Below are positions 3,601 to 38,681 of a DNA stretch of 64,000 nucleotides, piece by piece. The first letter of the stretch is position 1. Each line of letters begins with the position of its first letter. Below the pieces are notes generated by a model. It searched no databases. It was not told the origin of the DNA and saw only the letters and a list, made by a program, of their open reading frames with translations. This stretch comes from Longimicrobiales bacterium (lineage in GTDB: Bacteria; Gemmatimonadota; Gemmatimonadetes; Longimicrobiales; Gaopeijiaceae). The stretch spans positions 1,963,340-2,027,339 of the forward strand of contig OX638356.1 in the NCBI GenBank assembly GCA_951813395.1, written 5' to 3'. The position numbers and the translations under genes were made by a program.

Positions 3601-4626
3601 GTGGTCCGCGAGCCGGCCTCGCCGTCCCGTCCTTCGAACACTGCCGGGTTTGGCAGGGAAGTTGCTGAGGACCTGGCCTTTCACGGCTTCCAGGCGCGCT
3701 TCCTGGAGGATCGGGTACGCGCGTTGGCCCATGCCGGAGAGATAGACCCGCGTCACGCGTCGTTCGCGATCGACGTGCGGTCGACGGTCATCGCGCGGGC
3801 GATGTACCGTGCTGCCGACGGATCGGGTGATCTGTGCTATCCGGGCGGGCACGCTCCGGGTCCTTCACTCGCGTTCGGTGCGACGCCGCTGGAATTCCTG
3901 CGCCACCTGGCGTGCAAGGCGACGAGCGCCGGCGGGGCGAGAGAGGGCGGGTCGAGCTGGGCCGACACGCGGCGCGGCCTGATTGGCTGGGCGGGACCGT
4001 GCGGCTTCATGACCCAGGTGCTTGCGGGCGCCGCGCTCGCGTTCAGGCGGCGCAGGCAGAACCGCGCGGCCCTGGCCTTCGAAGGGAGCCGAGCGCTGGA
4101 TGCCGGCGGGTGGCATGAGGGCATGAACCTCGCGGGCGCGCTCCGGGCACCCCTGATCGTGGTCCTCGACGCCGGGACGGCCGGAGGCGCCGATCGCGTC
4201 CCGAGCATCGGCGCAGTCGCCGAAGGATACGGCTTTGCCTTCGCGGAACTCGGACAGGACCCGTTTGAGGCGCTCGTGGACAGGGTGACGGCTGCGAGGC
4301 GCCGTGCGGTCGACGGTGCGGGTCCGACGCTGCTGCGACTCGGTCCTCGCTCCGATTCCGGCCCTTGGGCGCTCCACGAGAGTTTTCTGGCGAGCGTTGC
4401 CGATCAATGGGGACTCGCCGGGCCCGAACTCGATGCGATCGAGCGGGCGGCTCGCGCGGGTGTCGATCATGCCGTGGCGCGCCTGGGCAAGGAACCTTCG
4501 CCGGAACCGCGCGACGCTCTCGCGCCTGTGCGCACCGATCATGAACCCTCCCCGCCCTGGACGCGACGCGAATCCCCGTCGCCGGGACCTGTGGAGCCGC
4601 AAACCGGGAGTGGCCATGTCCACTGA
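3601..4626 (+). CDS. Divergent 2-oxoacid dehydrogenase E1 alpha-like subunit
   Basis: About 341 residues if GTG 3601 is the start; no good ribosome-binding site is seen and the start is uncertain. It aligns by pattern with the alpha subunit of pyruvate or branched-chain 2-oxoacid dehydrogenase: 'FLEDRVRALAHAGEI' near the N terminus, and 'GGWHEGMNLAGALRAPLIVV' (split here: GGWHEGMNLAG, ALRAPLIVV) at the thiamine diphosphate region. The usual cofactor signature, GDG followed about 30 residues later by NN, reads FEG and DAG here. The 'RGHS' segment of the phosphorylation loop is also absent. The gene overlaps the E1 beta start by 11 bases, so it is translated in this operon. It may be a non-catalytic or strongly altered partner of E1 beta. 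Confidence 0.6.
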   Translation: MVREPASPSRPSNTAGFGREVAEDLAFHGFQARFLEDRVRALAHAGEIDPRHASFAIDVRSTVIARAMYRAADGSGDLCYPGGHAPGPSLAFGATPLEFLRHLACKATSAGGAREGGSSWADTRRGLIGWAGPCGFMTQVLAGAALAFRRRRQNRAALAFEGSRALDAGGWHEGMNLAGALRAPLIVVLDAGTAGGADRVPSIGAVAEGYGFAFAELGQDPFEALVDRVTAARRRAVDGAGPTLLRLGPRSDSGPWALHESFLASVADQWGLAGPELDAIERAARAGVDHAVARLGKEPSPEPRDALAPVRTDHEPSPPWTRRESPSPGPVEPQTGSGHVH

Positions 4627-33549: not shown

Positions 33550-34920
33550 ATGCAGCTTGCGGAGCATATCTTCCGGCAGTACGACATTCGGGGCATCGTA
33601 GACGAGGATCTGACTCCCGCGGTCGCGGAGGCCGTGGGCAGGGCCTACGCCTCCGAACTGCGCGCGCGCCTTCCCGGTGTGGCGCCGCGCGTCGCCGTCG
33701 GCGAGGACAACCGACCCTCGTCCCCCGGGTTGCGGGCCGGCCTGGAGCGGGGCCTGAGATCGGCGGGATGTGGTGTCGTCCGGCTGGGCACCGTCCCGAC
33801 CCCCGTCACCTATTTCAGCGAGTACGAATTCGCTGCGGACGGAGCCGTGCAGATCACCGGTTCCCACAATCCGCCGGAGTACAACGGCATCAAGATGACC
33901 ATGGGCAAGGCGTCCATCCACGGCGATGACATCCAGCGCCTGCAGCGTCGCATTCTGGAACGGGATCTGGCCGTCGGGACGGGATCCCTCGAGGATGTGG
34001 ATCCGCTCCCCGCCTACGTGGCCGACGTGTCCGCCCGCTTCCGGCTGTCGCGTCCCCTGAAGGTTGTCGTCGACTGTGGGAACGGCACGGGCTCGGTCGT
34101 CGCTCAACAGCTTCTGGAGTCCATCGGCCTCGAAGTGATCCCCCTCTACTGCGAATCGGATGGGACCTTCCCCAATCATCACCCGGACCCGACGGTGGAC
34201 CGGCATGTTCAGGATCTGATCGGCGAAGTGCGAAGACACGGAGCCGATGCGGGCATCGGGTTCGACGGCGACGCGGACCGTATCGGCGTGGTGGACGACC
34301 GGGGGCACATCGTGCGGGGCGACATCCTTCTCCTTCTCTTCGGTCTGGACGTCCTGAAGCGCCACGGGCCCGGACAGCGCCTGGTGTTCGACGTGAAGTG
34401 CTCGCAGGTCCTTCCCGAGGAGTTCGCGCGTGCCGGGGGCGAGCCGCTGATGTGGAAGACCGGACATTCGCTCATCAAGGAAAAGATGAAGGAGACGGGC
34501 GCGCTGGTCGCCGGAGAGCTTTCCGGGCACGTGTGCTTTGCCGACGACTACTACGGCTTCGACGATGCTCTCTATGCCGCCTGCCGGCTCGCGACGCTGA
34601 TCGCCGACGGCGACCGTCCGCTGTCGCGGATCTTCGGCGCGCTGCCCGCCTGTGTCGCAACCCCGGAACTGCGGATCGAGGTCGCCGAGGAAGACAAGTT
34701 CCCGCTGGTGGAGCGTGCGGTGGAGCACTTCAGCGCCCGCTACGACGTGATCGCCGTGGACGGGGTGCGGGTGCAGTTCGGTGACGGATGGGGTCTCATC
34801 CGTGCCTCGAACACGCAGCCCGTTATCGTGGCGCGCTTCGAGGCCGCGAGCGCGGAGCGCCTCCGGCAAATCCGGGCCACGATGGAGGACTGGCTGCGCC
34901 AGGAGGGGGTGCACATCTGA
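33550..34920 (+). CDS. Phosphomannomutase/phosphoglucomutase
   Basis: Encodes 456 residues. The enzyme interconverts hexose 1- and 6-phosphates, supplying precursors for cell-surface sugars. The order of motifs fits the alpha-D-phosphohexomutase superfamily: 'FRQYDIRGIV', the phosphoserine loop 'TGSHNPPEYNGIKM', the Mg-binding 'GFDGDADRIGVVD', 'GELSGHVCFAD' and the phosphate-binding 'RASNTQPVIVARFEA'. Length and motifs resemble the dual-specificity AlgC/ManB group. Its position after nuoN is probably not functional. Confidence 0.93.
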   Translation: MQLAEHIFRQYDIRGIVDEDLTPAVAEAVGRAYASELRARLPGVAPRVAVGEDNRPSSPGLRAGLERGLRSAGCGVVRLGTVPTPVTYFSEYEFAADGAVQITGSHNPPEYNGIKMTMGKASIHGDDIQRLQRRILERDLAVGTGSLEDVDPLPAYVADVSARFRLSRPLKVVVDCGNGTGSVVAQQLLESIGLEVIPLYCESDGTFPNHHPDPTVDRHVQDLIGEVRRHGADAGIGFDGDADRIGVVDDRGHIVRGDILLLLFGLDVLKRHGPGQRLVFDVKCSQVLPEEFARAGGEPLMWKTGHSLIKEKMKETGALVAGELSGHVCFADDYYGFDDALYAACRLATLIADGDRPLSRIFGALPACVATPELRIEVAEEDKFPLVERAVEHFSARYDVIAVDGVRVQFGDGWGLIRASNTQPVIVARFEAASAERLRQIRATMEDWLRQEGVHI

Positions 34921-35133: not shown

Positions 35134-36285
35134 ATGCTGACCCCGGAGAACCGCCGGAACCGCCAGAAAACCCGATCCGGTTGTGCCGCCCGATACAGGG
35201 GCGAGCCCTACACTGTCCCTGGCCAGGTCCTCGGTCTCCTCGTAGCGGTAGCCGCGTCGGCTTGCGACGCGCCCGAAACGGGTCCGCCGCCGGCAACATC
35301 CGATCCTCCTGCGGCTGTGGAGTTGGTGGACATGGCCGCGTTCAACGACGCATTCGAAGTGGTCCTCGAGCTCGAGCTGGAGGAAACCGACGAGGCCATG
35401 ACGGTGCAGCCCATGGTCAGTCTCGGCGGAGACGGCTCTTTGCTGCTCGCCGAGCCATTGGAGGGCCAAGTGAATGTCTATGGCACCGACGGCCGGCTGC
35501 GGCGCATCGTGGGTGGCCGAGGAGAGGGCCCGGGAGAGTTTCTGTTCCCTCTACGGGCTCACCGAACCCTCGATGGCGGCGTCGTGGTGGCGGACCTCCA
35601 GCTCGCCCGGATCACGTTCTTCCCGGCCGCCGGCGGGGACCCTGAGATCGTCATGTCCCCGATCCCCACCGTGCAGGGAGCACAGGATCTGGGCGAAGAT
35701 CGGTATCTGCTCACCGGGACGTTGCAGCCCGGGGATGCACCCGATCTTCTACACATCTGGAGCCGCCGCTCCGGCGACATCGAACGCAGTTTTCTGCCCA
35801 TGGGTGTGCCCGAGGAATCCCTCGGCCATGCACTCTCGTTTCAGGGTGCCTCCGCGACGTTGGAGGCGGACACGATCTGGGCCGTCTGGGCTCTGTCGGA
35901 CACCCTCTACAAGTTCAACCGCCGAGGGGACCGACTGGGACAGATCCCTCTGCCGATGGTGAGGCCCATGGGCACCCTGCCCGGGGCGGGTGAGAGCGTA
36001 CCCGATGCGAACGCCGACGCTGGCGCGCTCGACCGGTTCACCCAGTTGTTCGGTGTGTCGGTGCTCCACGACGGCAACCTGGTGGTAACGTCCATGCAGT
36101 CGCGGGGCACGGATGCGGTCTGGGATGTCCTGATCCTCGACCGCGATGGGCGGCAGTTGCTGGGCGCGCCCAATATGCCGCAGCTGTTGGCGGTGGAGCA
36201 GGATCTGTTCTACTTCGATGATCCCGCATCGGTCCTGCCGAACCGGTGGCTTGTCGCGCGTTGGAAGGGTGATCCGCAGCCATGA
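35134..36285 (+). CDS. Beta-propeller lipoprotein (6-bladed/NHL-like)
   Basis: Encodes 383 residues from ATG 35134, with a strong ribosome-binding site (GGAAGGAG). After a basic N terminus of about 28 residues comes a short hydrophobic run and a lipobox 'VAVAASAC' with Cys44, so it is probably a lipoprotein. The mature part shows propeller-blade repeats: 'GGRGEGPGEFLFPLRAHR' followed by 'DGGVVVADLQLARITFF', then 'GTLQPGD', 'ALSDTLYKFNRRGDRLG' and 'VWDVLILDRDGRQLLG'. Such propellers in Bacteroidota and Gemmatimonadota-like genomes often accompany small secreted peptides. The next gene overlaps by 4 bases (ATGA). Confidence 0.8.
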   Translation: MLTPENRRNRQKTRSGCAARYRGEPYTVPGQVLGLLVAVAASACDAPETGPPPATSDPPAAVELVDMAAFNDAFEVVLELELEETDEAMTVQPMVSLGGDGSLLLAEPLEGQVNVYGTDGRLRRIVGGRGEGPGEFLFPLRAHRTLDGGVVVADLQLARITFFPAAGGDPEIVMSPIPTVQGAQDLGEDRYLLTGTLQPGDAPDLLHIWSRRSGDIERSFLPMGVPEESLGHALSFQGASATLEADTIWAVWALSDTLYKFNRRGDRLGQIPLPMVRPMGTLPGAGESVPDANADAGALDRFTQLFGVSVLHDGNLVVTSMQSRGTDAVWDVLILDRDGRQLLGAPNMPQLLAVEQDLFYFDDPASVLPNRWLVARWKGDPQP

Positions 36286-36848
36286 CGCGGGTTCTCGGAC
36301 GTGCCCGGCGCTCCTGCCCGCCCGTCCCCGTCCGGCACCGGGCTGCAGCCATGCTTGCTCTGGTCTGGATGGCTGCCGGGTGTTTGTCGCAGGACCGCCC
36401 GGAGGGCATCCCTGGCGTCGGCGACGCTCTGCTTGGTCTTCAGCTCTCCGGGCGCGTTGCGGCGCTGGTGTGGGTCTTCGACGCCAGGGAGTGCCTGGGG
36501 TGCACGCTCACGGATCCTGCGAGAGCGGTGCGAGCCCTCCAGCATCGTCTGGGGGAGAGGTTCGAGGTAGTCGCGGTGGCGGTGGGCGACAACGGGGACG
36601 CGGACCGCCCGATGGTTGCGGACTTCCTCGTTTCCCAGCGGATCTCGGCAAGCATCGAGATGCTTGATCGATCCGACTACGTGCGAGCGTTCGGAAGAGC
36701 GGAAACGGCCCGGTTCTACGTCACGAACACAGCCGGCGTAATCGAGGCGGTGTTGCCGTCAAGCGATGCCGACAGCTGGCGTTCGGGAGGAGATTCGCTC
36801 GATCTGGCGGGGTTTGTCCGGAGCCGGGCGATGGGTGCAGTACGGTGA
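36282..36848 (+). CDS. Thioredoxin-like lipoprotein with CLGC motif
   Basis: Encodes 188 residues, overlapping the propeller gene stop. A basic N terminus is followed by 'MLALVWMAAGC' with the likely lipid-modified Cys34. The mature domain has a strand 'VAALVWVFDARECLGC' ending in a C-x2-C pair (Cys71, Cys74), in the position of a thioredoxin-like active site, and later 'YVTNTAGVIEAVLP', which fits the cis-Pro-side strand region of redoxins. No cis-Pro was confirmed. It would act on thiols outside the cytoplasm. Its neighbours are three small Cys-rich secreted peptides, possible substrates by position (inference). Confidence 0.65.
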   Translation: MTRVLGRARRSCPPVPVRHRAAAMLALVWMAAGCLSQDRPEGIPGVGDALLGLQLSGRVAALVWVFDARECLGCTLTDPARAVRALQHRLGERFEVVAVAVGDNGDADRPMVADFLVSQRISASIEMLDRSDYVRAFGRAETARFYVTNTAGVIEAVLPSSDADSWRSGGDSLDLAGFVRSRAMGAVR

Positions 36849-36886
36849 GTATTCGACTTTGACACTTGAAATGAAGGAGTTGGACG

Positions 36887-37132
36887 ATGAAGAGAAGCAG
36901 GAAGCATTTTGGGCGGCGCGCCTGGTTGATGCGCGCCGCGGTATTGAGCGCGGCGGTCGCGTTTTCCGCGGGCGCACCGGTGACGGGAGTGCCGGCAACG
37001 CCCGTGGGGGCCGGGGTAGAGGCAAGCGGCGAGGAGATACGCGAACGCGTACTCAGATTCGGGAGGTTTCGCCTCTGCTGGACATCCTGCCCGGGGTATG
37101 GCTGGTGTTGCTACGACAACCCTCACGTCTAG
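36887..37132 (+). CDS. Small secreted Cys-rich peptide 1
   Basis: Encodes 81 residues. AAGGAG lies seven bases before ATG 36887. A basic start 'MKRSRKHFGRRAW' is followed by a hydrophobic segment (about residues 13-30), consistent with a signal peptide. A Pro/Val/Gly/Ala linker and an acidic patch follow. The last 20 residues contain four Cys: 64, 68, 74 and 75, pattern C-x3-C-x5-CC, preceded by an aromatic/Arg run 'RFGRFRL'. It matches the organisation of peptides 2 and 3 although overall identity is low. Function unknown. Confidence 0.75.
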   Translation: MKRSRKHFGRRAWLMRAAVLSAAVAFSAGAPVTGVPATPVGAGVEASGEEIRERVLRFGRFRLCWTSCPGYGWCCYDNPHV

Positions 37133-37247
37133 TGAGCGGTCCGCTGATCCGATGCGTTCCCGGGAGTGTTGAGATGCGCGCGATTCCGACGGTCTCGAAA
37201 CCCCGGGGCCTGCATCCATAGGCATTCAGATCCTAAGGAGAGAAGAA

Positions 37248-37499
37248 ATGAAACGAGTATTCCGCAGAGTTGCGGCTCGTGCGTGGAGCGTGCGCACGGG
37301 TGTGAAGGTGTTGAGTCTGGCGGTAGCGCTCACCGCATTCTGGCCGGTGCTTCCGGACGGCGATGTCCCGGTCGGTACGGCAGTAAGCGCTCAGTCGCGG
37401 GGGCACAAGCTGGTCATCCGGTTTTGGTTGTGGAAGATATGCACCTCCTACGCATGTCATTCCGATGCCCCGGACTGTTGCGGTCCCGTCAAGTTCTGA
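37248..37499 (+). CDS. Small secreted Cys-rich peptide 2
   Basis: Encodes 83 residues. AAGGAG is seven bases before ATG 37248, as in peptide 1. It starts 'MKRVFRRVAARAW', has a hydrophobic segment (about residues 19-34) and a likely signal peptidase site after 'TAVSA'. The tail begins with an aromatic run 'VIRFWLWKI' and has Cys65, 70, 77 and 78, pattern C-x4-C-x6-CC. The start and tail resemble peptide 1, so the two are probably diverged paralogues. Function unknown. Confidence 0.75.
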   Translation: MKRVFRRVAARAWSVRTGVKVLSLAVALTAFWPVLPDGDVPVGTAVSAQSRGHKLVIRFWLWKICTSYACHSDAPDCCGPVKF

Positions 37500-37540
37500 G
37501 CACGACACAAACCGCGGGGTTTCCCGCAGAGAGGTTGAAA

Positions 37541-37789
37541 ATGCAAGGCAAGAAGATGAAGCGCCTGGGGACCACTGCGGCCAGGAGCGCGAAGATCCTC
37601 GCGGTCGCGGCGGCACTGCTGTTGGCGGCTCCCGGCACGGGAGAATCCGCCGCGGCTACTGCGGCGTCAGTCGATGGCGATCGTTGGGAGGTGCGGATGT
37701 GGACCTGGGTGCTGTGTCTGCCGATGCCCTGTCCGGTCGGCTTGTCCAACTGTTGCGACCTGTTCGCGCCGCCTGGTCCGGTGATGTGA
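37541..37789 (+). CDS. Small secreted Cys-rich peptide 3
   Basis: Encodes 82 residues from ATG 37541 (AGAGAGG upstream); ATG 37556 would give the 'MKR' start seen in the other two. A basic N terminus and an Ala/Leu-rich segment (about residues 17-31) indicate a signal peptide, with a likely cut near 'AATAAS'. The tail has the aromatic run 'EVRMWTWVL' and Cys59, 64, 71 and 72, pattern C-x4-C-x6-CC, the same spacing as peptide 2. It is the last gene before a strong hairpin. Function unknown. Confidence 0.75.
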   Translation: MQGKKMKRLGTTAARSAKILAVAAALLLAAPGTGESAAATAASVDGDRWEVRMWTWVLCLPMPCPVGLSNCCDLFAPPGPVM

Positions 37790-37832
37790 TCCGCGGGACC
37801 GGGGGGAAGACGTCGCCTCGGTAACCGCAGTC

Positions 37833-37873
37833 GGCAGCGGCGGGCTCCTCACCGCGAGTAGCCCGCCGCTGCC
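37833..37873 (+). terminator. Strong hairpin ending the Cys-rich peptide locus
   Basis: GGCAGCGGCGGGCT (37833-37846) and AGCCCGCCGCTGCC (37860-37873) form a perfect 14-bp stem with a 13-base loop. It stands between the last peptide gene and the convergent bshB1. No T-run follows. It probably ends transcription from the peptide side and perhaps from both sides. Confidence 0.7.
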
Positions 37874-37955
37874 ATGGGGTGCCTGTTGTCCCGCCATTGC
37901 AGGGTCCGGTGCGTCGGCACTCCTGGCAGCGCGGGGCCCCGGGAACGGATGGGAA

Positions 37956-38681
37956 TCAGAAGGTGCCGACCCCGAGGTCTCCCAGCGTCTCCGCCTCCAC
38001 GGTCTCCTCGGTCCAGAAGATTTCGGCGTAGCCGCGACGGATCAGCGACCCGTAAGCGGCGTGCACGCTTCGAATCTGGGCGAACAGGGGACGGCCGCCG
38101 GCCGGGAACACCTCGCCAATCCCGCTCTTGCCTTCAAACTGCGTGTTGTAGGCCGACAGCGCCTCGATCTTGCGGTCCATCTGATCCGTAATGTCCACGG
38201 CGAACGTCGGCTTGACCGGGTCCTCGCGGAACGACAGGGCCTGGACGACCTTTTCCGGACGGTGCGGCTTGCCCTTGACAGGCAGGTTTCGCAACCCTGA
38301 CAGGAAGGAGGCATCTCGGGCGAGTTCCGCCGCAGCACGATGATCGGGGTGACGGCCCCGGGTCCAGTGAGTCACGATGACCCGAGGCCGCAGGGCACGG
38401 ATCAATGCTGCGACCACGTGCCTGGAGTGCAGGTCGTTGCATAGCGCGGCGTCTGGCAGGCCTGCGCAGCGGCGCACCGCAAGACCCATGATCCCGGCGG
38501 CCGCAGCTGCCTCGGCGGCACGGGATTCCCGGGTGCCGCTCGAGCCCATTTCACCGGCGGTCAGGTCGAGGACGCCCGTCCGTTGTCCGGCGTCCGCGGA
38601 CTTGATCAGCGATCCCCCGCAGAAGATCTCGGCGTCATCCGGATGCGCCATGACCGCGAGGAGGTCAAGCGGCGCGCTCAC
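37956..38681 (-). CDS. bshB1: Bacillithiol biosynthesis deacetylase BshB1-like (PIG-L family)
   Basis: Encodes 241 residues from GTG 38681 on the minus strand; the GTGA overlaps the stop of the upstream permease gene. The zinc-binding motif 'AHPDDAEIFCGG' is near the N terminus and 'RGRHPDHRAA' further on. The length and the C-terminal 'AEIFWTEETVEAETLGDL' fit BshB1, which removes acetyl from GlcNAc-malate to make the bacillithiol precursor. A role on another acetylated sugar is possible. bshA and bshC are not in the window. Confidence 0.85.
   Translation of the reverse strand: MSAPLDLLAVMAHPDDAEIFCGGSLIKSADAGQRTGVLDLTAGEMGSSGTRESRAAEAAAAAGIMGLAVRRCAGLPDAALCNDLHSRHVVAALIRALRPRVIVTHWTRGRHPDHRAAAELARDASFLSGLRNLPVKGKPHRPEKVVQALSFREDPVKPTFAVDITDQMDRKIEALSAYNTQFEGKSGIGEVFPAGGRPLFAQIRSVHAAYGSLIRRGYAEIFWTEETVEAETLGDLGVGTF

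Follow-up and report, generated by a model that had tools for sequence, protein, structure and literature searches.

We identified a group of five co-directional genes in a 64,000-nucleotide stretch of DNA (the window) from a Longimicrobiales bacterium, contig OX638356.1, whose 4.09 Mb genome (G000) is assembled as a single contig. As the original prediction had described, two overlapping genes for lipoproteins are followed on the plus strand by three genes for small four-cysteine peptides. The first gene (35134..36285) encodes a 383-amino-acid lipoprotein, with the lipobox ASAC-D at Cys44, that is predicted to form an NHL-type six-bladed beta-propeller. Its stop is overlapped by 4 bp by the start of the second gene (36282..36848), which encodes a 188-amino-acid lipoprotein (lipobox AAGC at Cys34) with a predicted TlpA/ResA-like thioredoxin fold, here called the redoxin. 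Its CLGC motif (Cys71 and Cys74, residues 71-74) is encoded at 36492..36503. Peptides A (36887..37132, 81 amino acids, C-x3-C-x5-CC), B (37248..37499, 83 amino acids, C-x4-C-x6-CC) and C (37541..37789, 82 amino acids, C-x4-C-x6-CC) each have a signal peptide and exactly four cysteines. Propeller, redoxin and peptides together make up one conserved module, apparently undescribed in the sources searched; we refer to each occurrence of this gene set as a cassette.

The three peptides are not chance reading frames, as a strict filter for open reading frames (ORFs) with a ribosome binding site, a signal-like amino terminus and at least four carboxy-terminal cysteines yields just five in 317 kb of this genome (the window plus the regions around its other propellers). 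Three of these come from the locus, one from a second propeller-redoxin cassette and one from elsewhere. Among four close relatives, the ratio of nonsynonymous to synonymous substitution (dN/dS) is 0.20 in the propeller gene and 0.40 in the redoxin gene. The values of 0.38, 0.62 and 0.44 for peptides A, B and C indicate that all three behave as real genes, and they are under purifying selection. A profile of the peptide family recovers them with expectation values (E) of 1.2e-24, 3.9e-20 and 2.2e-18, respectively.

Alignment of 35 peptides from related cassettes reveals four invariant cysteines and an invariant proline after a hydrophobic segment. The precursors are ~75-85 amino acids long, and a simple AxA rule places the mature parts at ~26-44 amino acids, consisting of an aromatic or hydrophobic strand followed by C-x3/4-C-x4-6-CC, with a net charge that spans +4 to -6. 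Two peptide types (A and B) persist across species. No member of the family is matched by a Pfam or NCBIfam model.

The nearest analogy to the module that we can offer is found in Bacteroidota, where loci for NVEALA peptides (PF14055) have neighbouring six-bladed propeller and redoxin lipoproteins. NVEALA peptides are likewise small signal-peptide proteins with a cysteine-rich carboxy-terminal part. The DUF5128-like character of the window propeller, and the presence of two Bacteroides proteins among its nearest structures (below), fit this analogy without proving it. However, the peptides themselves differ. PF14055 matches none of the 35 at E <= 0.01 and none of the window's three at E <= 1, and the window's genome has no match above the cut-off in a search in which one control genome does exceed it. 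We therefore reject membership in NVEALA: as had been noted from the sequence at the outset, the NVEALA motif is missing, and a fixed tetracysteine motif stands in its place.

Identification of the first protein as a beta-propeller is supported by its profile, its structural model and structure searches, and its lipobox agrees with a lipoprotein. DUF5128 is matched by 11 of 17 propeller orthologues; the window propeller scores weakly against this family (17.4 bits, below the cut-off of 22.9). A propeller profile reaches the NHL domains of TRIM71, TRIM2 and Brat in the PDB, with values down to 9e-30. The AlphaFold2 model is nearly all-beta, and its predicted local distance difference test score (pLDDT) exceeds 90 over most of the propeller. 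Searching with this model, Foldseek returned the Brat NHL domain (4e-13) and the Bacteroides protein 4raa (6e-12), as well as Bacteroides 3s9j. The latter two are the nearest solved bacterial structures. These matches point to a six-bladed NHL-type fold.

The redoxin matches no Pfam family, its sequence being too distant for the Pfam thioredoxin models. Its assignment as a thioredoxin-like CLGC lipoprotein, also made in the original prediction, is upheld by the AlphaFold2 model, which has thioredoxin topology with block-mean pLDDT of 90-97 across residues 41-180 and the CLGC motif opening helix 1. Foldseek finds YkuV/ResA/DsbE-type proteins first (1.5e-5, probability 1.00) and also NHLRC2 (6gc1). 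The modelled protein would thus share with TlpA, ResA and DsbE both the fold and the placement of CxxC where helix alpha1 begins, but it differs from them as a fixed partner of a propeller and in the degeneration of CxxC in some relatives. Both cysteines of CLxC are invariant across a 16-sequence alignment (A3), and when distant relatives are added only Cys74 of CLGC stays invariant. The weaker redoxin matches that we examined (E above ~1e-9) are ordinary WCxxC-type thioredoxins with neither propeller nor peptide, and a search for the redoxin on plasmids found none.

All 16 named records with close propeller relatives are Gemmatimonadota or Longimicrobiales metagenome-assembled genomes (MAGs), and several of the bin names suggest, by our own reading, a sponge origin. 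Within the genus, orthologous propellers are followed by the redoxin and then by one to three peptides. Cassette carriers occur in four families of the class (f1, f3, f5 and f7). A scripted tally of 40 propeller loci found redoxin and peptide together at 28, neither at seven, a redoxin only at five, and a peptide without redoxin at none; the corresponding Fisher value of 4e-5 is only indicative because the loci are related by descent. Propellers never found beside such peptides had been named beforehand as the outcome that would count against a link, and the 28 loci show the opposite.

Each of the five redoxin-only loci was then inspected by eye. L140, on the same contig as L053, has a 5'-truncated peptide ORF; L057 has a six-cysteine peptide variant and L215 a variant with wider cysteine spacing; in L217, 30 residues encoded immediately before the propeller may represent a peptide; and L061 runs into the end of its contig on the flank that, in the paralogous L039, carries the peptide. 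Searching 395 Gemmatimonadota genomes with the peptide profile gave 39 matches at E < 1e-6, a set that includes many rows of the search profile itself. Every one lies at a cassette, and no match of this strength occurs elsewhere in these genomes. Conversely, the eight genomes of the same genus that lack a strong peptide match (G001, G004, G007, G009, G011, G015, G020 and G022) contain no redoxin match better than 6e-5. The window's genome has 52 DUF5128 propeller matches in 4.1 Mb, many in tandem, and the other propellers examined have no such peptide nearby, with one possible exception (L072:11517-11744). This small cysteine-rich ORF with a signal peptide lies on the minus strand near a propeller cluster without a redoxin.

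The cassettes show four gene orders and occupy several genomic sites. The order propeller-redoxin-peptide(s) is accompanied by peptide(s)-propeller-redoxin (L039, L062, L138, L139 and L215), by an arrangement with peptides on both sides (L059), and by redoxin-peptide-propeller-peptide (L137). In the second cassette of the window's genome (L039), the peptide thus precedes the propeller. At L049:5521-7164 (minus strand) propeller and redoxin are fused in one ORF of 548 amino acids, with a single lipobox, the order propeller-thioredoxin and the motif CLGC.

Some cassettes have unusual surroundings. The second cassette in the genome of the window is preceded by a gene for a further small thioredoxin-like protein with a single active-site cysteine (CVHT; L039:5382-5936, minus strand), while an insertion sequence (IS)-type transposase lies downstream. 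An M50-like membrane protein with HELGH is encoded directly upstream of the peptide-propeller-redoxin-peptide cassette in L059 (L059:4990-5628, plus strand). In L216, a second tetracysteine core (WCGFDCDAGESCC; about 4312-4487, minus strand) is encoded in a different frame across the 3' end of the redoxin gene; it has no signal peptide of its own and may represent a frameshifted fusion.

In the window the module is bordered on the left by a phosphomannomutase-like gene, manB (33550..34920, plus strand), and on the right by a PIG-L deacetylase-like gene (37957..38678, minus strand); both lie outside the module, and their functions are assigned by resemblance. The cassette is found beside PIG-L here, in 14 further genomes of the same genus and in G196, which belongs to another genus. 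At this home site macB follows beyond PIG-L in every contig long enough to show it. On the opposite flank, contigs of sufficient length carry nuoN and manB, G010 (L052) being the exception. Five genomes of the same genus (G022, G004, G009, G015 and G001) have a manB-PIG-L gap of only 154-709 bp with no cassette inside. In G015 (L179) and G001 (L231) this gap retains the propeller start and a late propeller fragment, a remnant that reads as a deletion scar. The cassette is thus present or absent as a unit at the manB/PIG-L site. Joint occurrence across gene orders and sites, together with this presence and absence as a unit, bears out the proposal that propeller and peptides belong to one system. 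We found no further gene conserved across cassettes beyond the home site, no known modification enzyme of the ribosomally synthesised and post-translationally modified peptide (RiPP) type in the locus, and no match of the locus to the anti-phage defence models of PADLOC.

What the module does can be proposed in outline. The precursors would be exported via Sec and cut near the AxA site to give mature secreted peptides of roughly 30-42 amino acids. In the envelope, two disulfides would most likely link their four cysteines. Oxidising power would be drawn from the cell's general system, VKOR; this protein is encoded in the window's genome, and hence an oxidising source exists. Redoxin and propeller would act as a membrane-anchored pair in contact with the peptides, the propeller serving as a binding platform and its thioredoxin-fold partner making, proofreading or holding the peptide disulfides before display or release. 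In the reading that we prefer, the lipoprotein pair serves to fold, hold or display disulfide-bonded mini-proteins, and we judge its chances to be a little short of even. A more ambitious version, in which a two-lipoprotein propeller-thioredoxin machine represents a new class of envelope system that folds and deploys a new family of tetracysteine mini-proteins, which Gemmatimonadota, sponge symbionts among them, would direct at competitors or a host, is possible but should be held more tentatively. The peptides themselves may serve antagonism, signalling, metal handling or surface structure.

Several observations weigh against simple catalysis by the redoxin. The first cysteine of a CxxC motif is normally the nucleophile. 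In five distant cassettes (L054, L056, L057, L064 and L066) the redoxin keeps only the second cysteine, with the motifs GLAC, YLKC, VGSC, YLTC and LASC, although propeller and cysteine peptide persist. The dithiol is therefore not obligatory, and a catalytic dithiol is not the whole story. The position of the cis-proline in the window redoxin is not occupied by proline ('ETARFYV'). Finally, the thioredoxin domain of NHLRC2 is inactive as an oxidoreductase in an insulin assay (PMC6107167). We keep the original suggestion, oxidation or isomerisation of the peptides by the redoxin, as a possibility. Holding or presenting the peptides is just as compatible with the observations.

Two known systems provide partial parallels. 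NHLRC2 combines a thioredoxin-like domain and a six-bladed NHL propeller around a shared cleft, in the order thioredoxin then propeller, with the motif CCINC and no conserved gene neighbours reported (PMC6107167). The module resembles it in this pairing of folds and in the Foldseek match of the redoxin to 6gc1. However, the L049 fusion has propeller before thioredoxin, contains CLGC, is a lipoprotein and has peptides alongside, and we do not assign it to NHLRC2. The pediocin PA-1 system has a double-glycine leader, a dedicated ABC (ATP-binding cassette) exporter and an immunity gene, and no propeller. In contrast, the precursors in the window have signal-peptide-like leaders with AxA sites, and we found no double-glycine leader, dedicated ABC exporter or immunity gene beside the peptides in the window; they are not class II bacteriocins in this sense. 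The likeness lies in a small secreted cysteine peptide with a dedicated thioredoxin-like partner, PedC, whose co-production reportedly raises the potency of pediocin (PMC4919988). Chemistry of the proposed kind would thus not be without precedent, but neither this gene set nor this family of peptides seems to have been described in the sources searched.

Of the other explanations, the one that survives best is that the peptides are bacteriocin-like antagonists, which the lipoproteins mature, or from which they shield the producer by binding in the envelope, or both. We consider this unlikely. Small, faster-evolving secreted cysteine peptides in one to three copies and with patchy presence would suit antagonists, and self-protection-type ABC pairs beside two distant cassettes are suggestive. 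In L216 (2325-4015, minus strand) the peptide gene is followed by genes for a DrrA/BcrA-type ABC ATPase and for an ABC-2 permease, and the best NCBIfam model for the ATPase is a lantibiotic protection ABC protein (E 5.6e-49, below the model's cut-off). In L215 (1485-3334, plus strand) the cassette is directly preceded by genes for a homologue of this ATPase and for a likely permease. However, such a pair adjoins only 2 of about 33 cassettes. The original observation that the locus lacks a modification enzyme, exporter or immunity gene holds for the window and needs qualification only for these two. Moreover, a charge range from +4 to -6 implies no common cationic character, and the position of the cassette is fixed across the whole genus.

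Less probable still is a role for the peptides as signals released by the cell or as effectors aimed at a host, with the propeller as receptor or carrier. Propellers commonly bind ligands, many carriers are apparently sponge-associated MAGs judging by bin name, and the persistence of peptide types A and B across species would be in keeping with such a role. Nevertheless, the fixed-site loci have no adjacent regulator, carriers are found in other families too, and a receptor role leaves the constant redoxin unexplained. We give the lowest standing of these three to metal binding by the four cysteines, in which the redoxin would hold the thiols in the reduced state until the metal is loaded, the part that TlpA/Sco-type proteins play for CuA. 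The nearest redoxin folds are indeed ResA/TlpA-type proteins and a tetrathiolate spacing is possible, but the spacing varies (x3/4, x4-6), some relatives have six cysteines and no metal transporter is linked. We reject as very improbable the view that the genes have no functional link and are neighbours by chance or because an operon was simply passed on vertically. In its favour stands only the home site, which is inherited vertically within one genus and in a genus related to it. Against it stand the reordered genes, the independent sites, the propeller-redoxin fusion, the absence of the whole set at once, the propellers that lack redoxin and peptide alike, and about 50 other propeller matches in the window's genome, which, as far as examined and with the one possible exception, have no such peptides nearby.

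A defined, testable module thus occurs in four or more families of a phylum with hardly any cultured members, and its peptides form a family that neither Pfam nor NCBIfam contains. Should the two lipoproteins truly fold the peptides, they would amount to a disulfide system dedicated to this task and separate from the Dsb pathway. The module would also offer a handle on peptides that sponge symbionts secrete and on the marked expansion of propellers in these genomes.

The operon closes with a hairpin (37833..37873, plus strand). Its proposed strength is confirmed, but not a role as a canonical intrinsic terminator, because it lacks a T-run; a terminator scan did not call it, and the terminator and sigma-70 scans gave nothing useful. 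The stem consists of 14 perfectly matched base pairs, and the predicted RNA fold of 37790-37900 is more stable than that of shuffled sequences (z = -4.8), with an equally stable fold in 0 of 200 shuffles.

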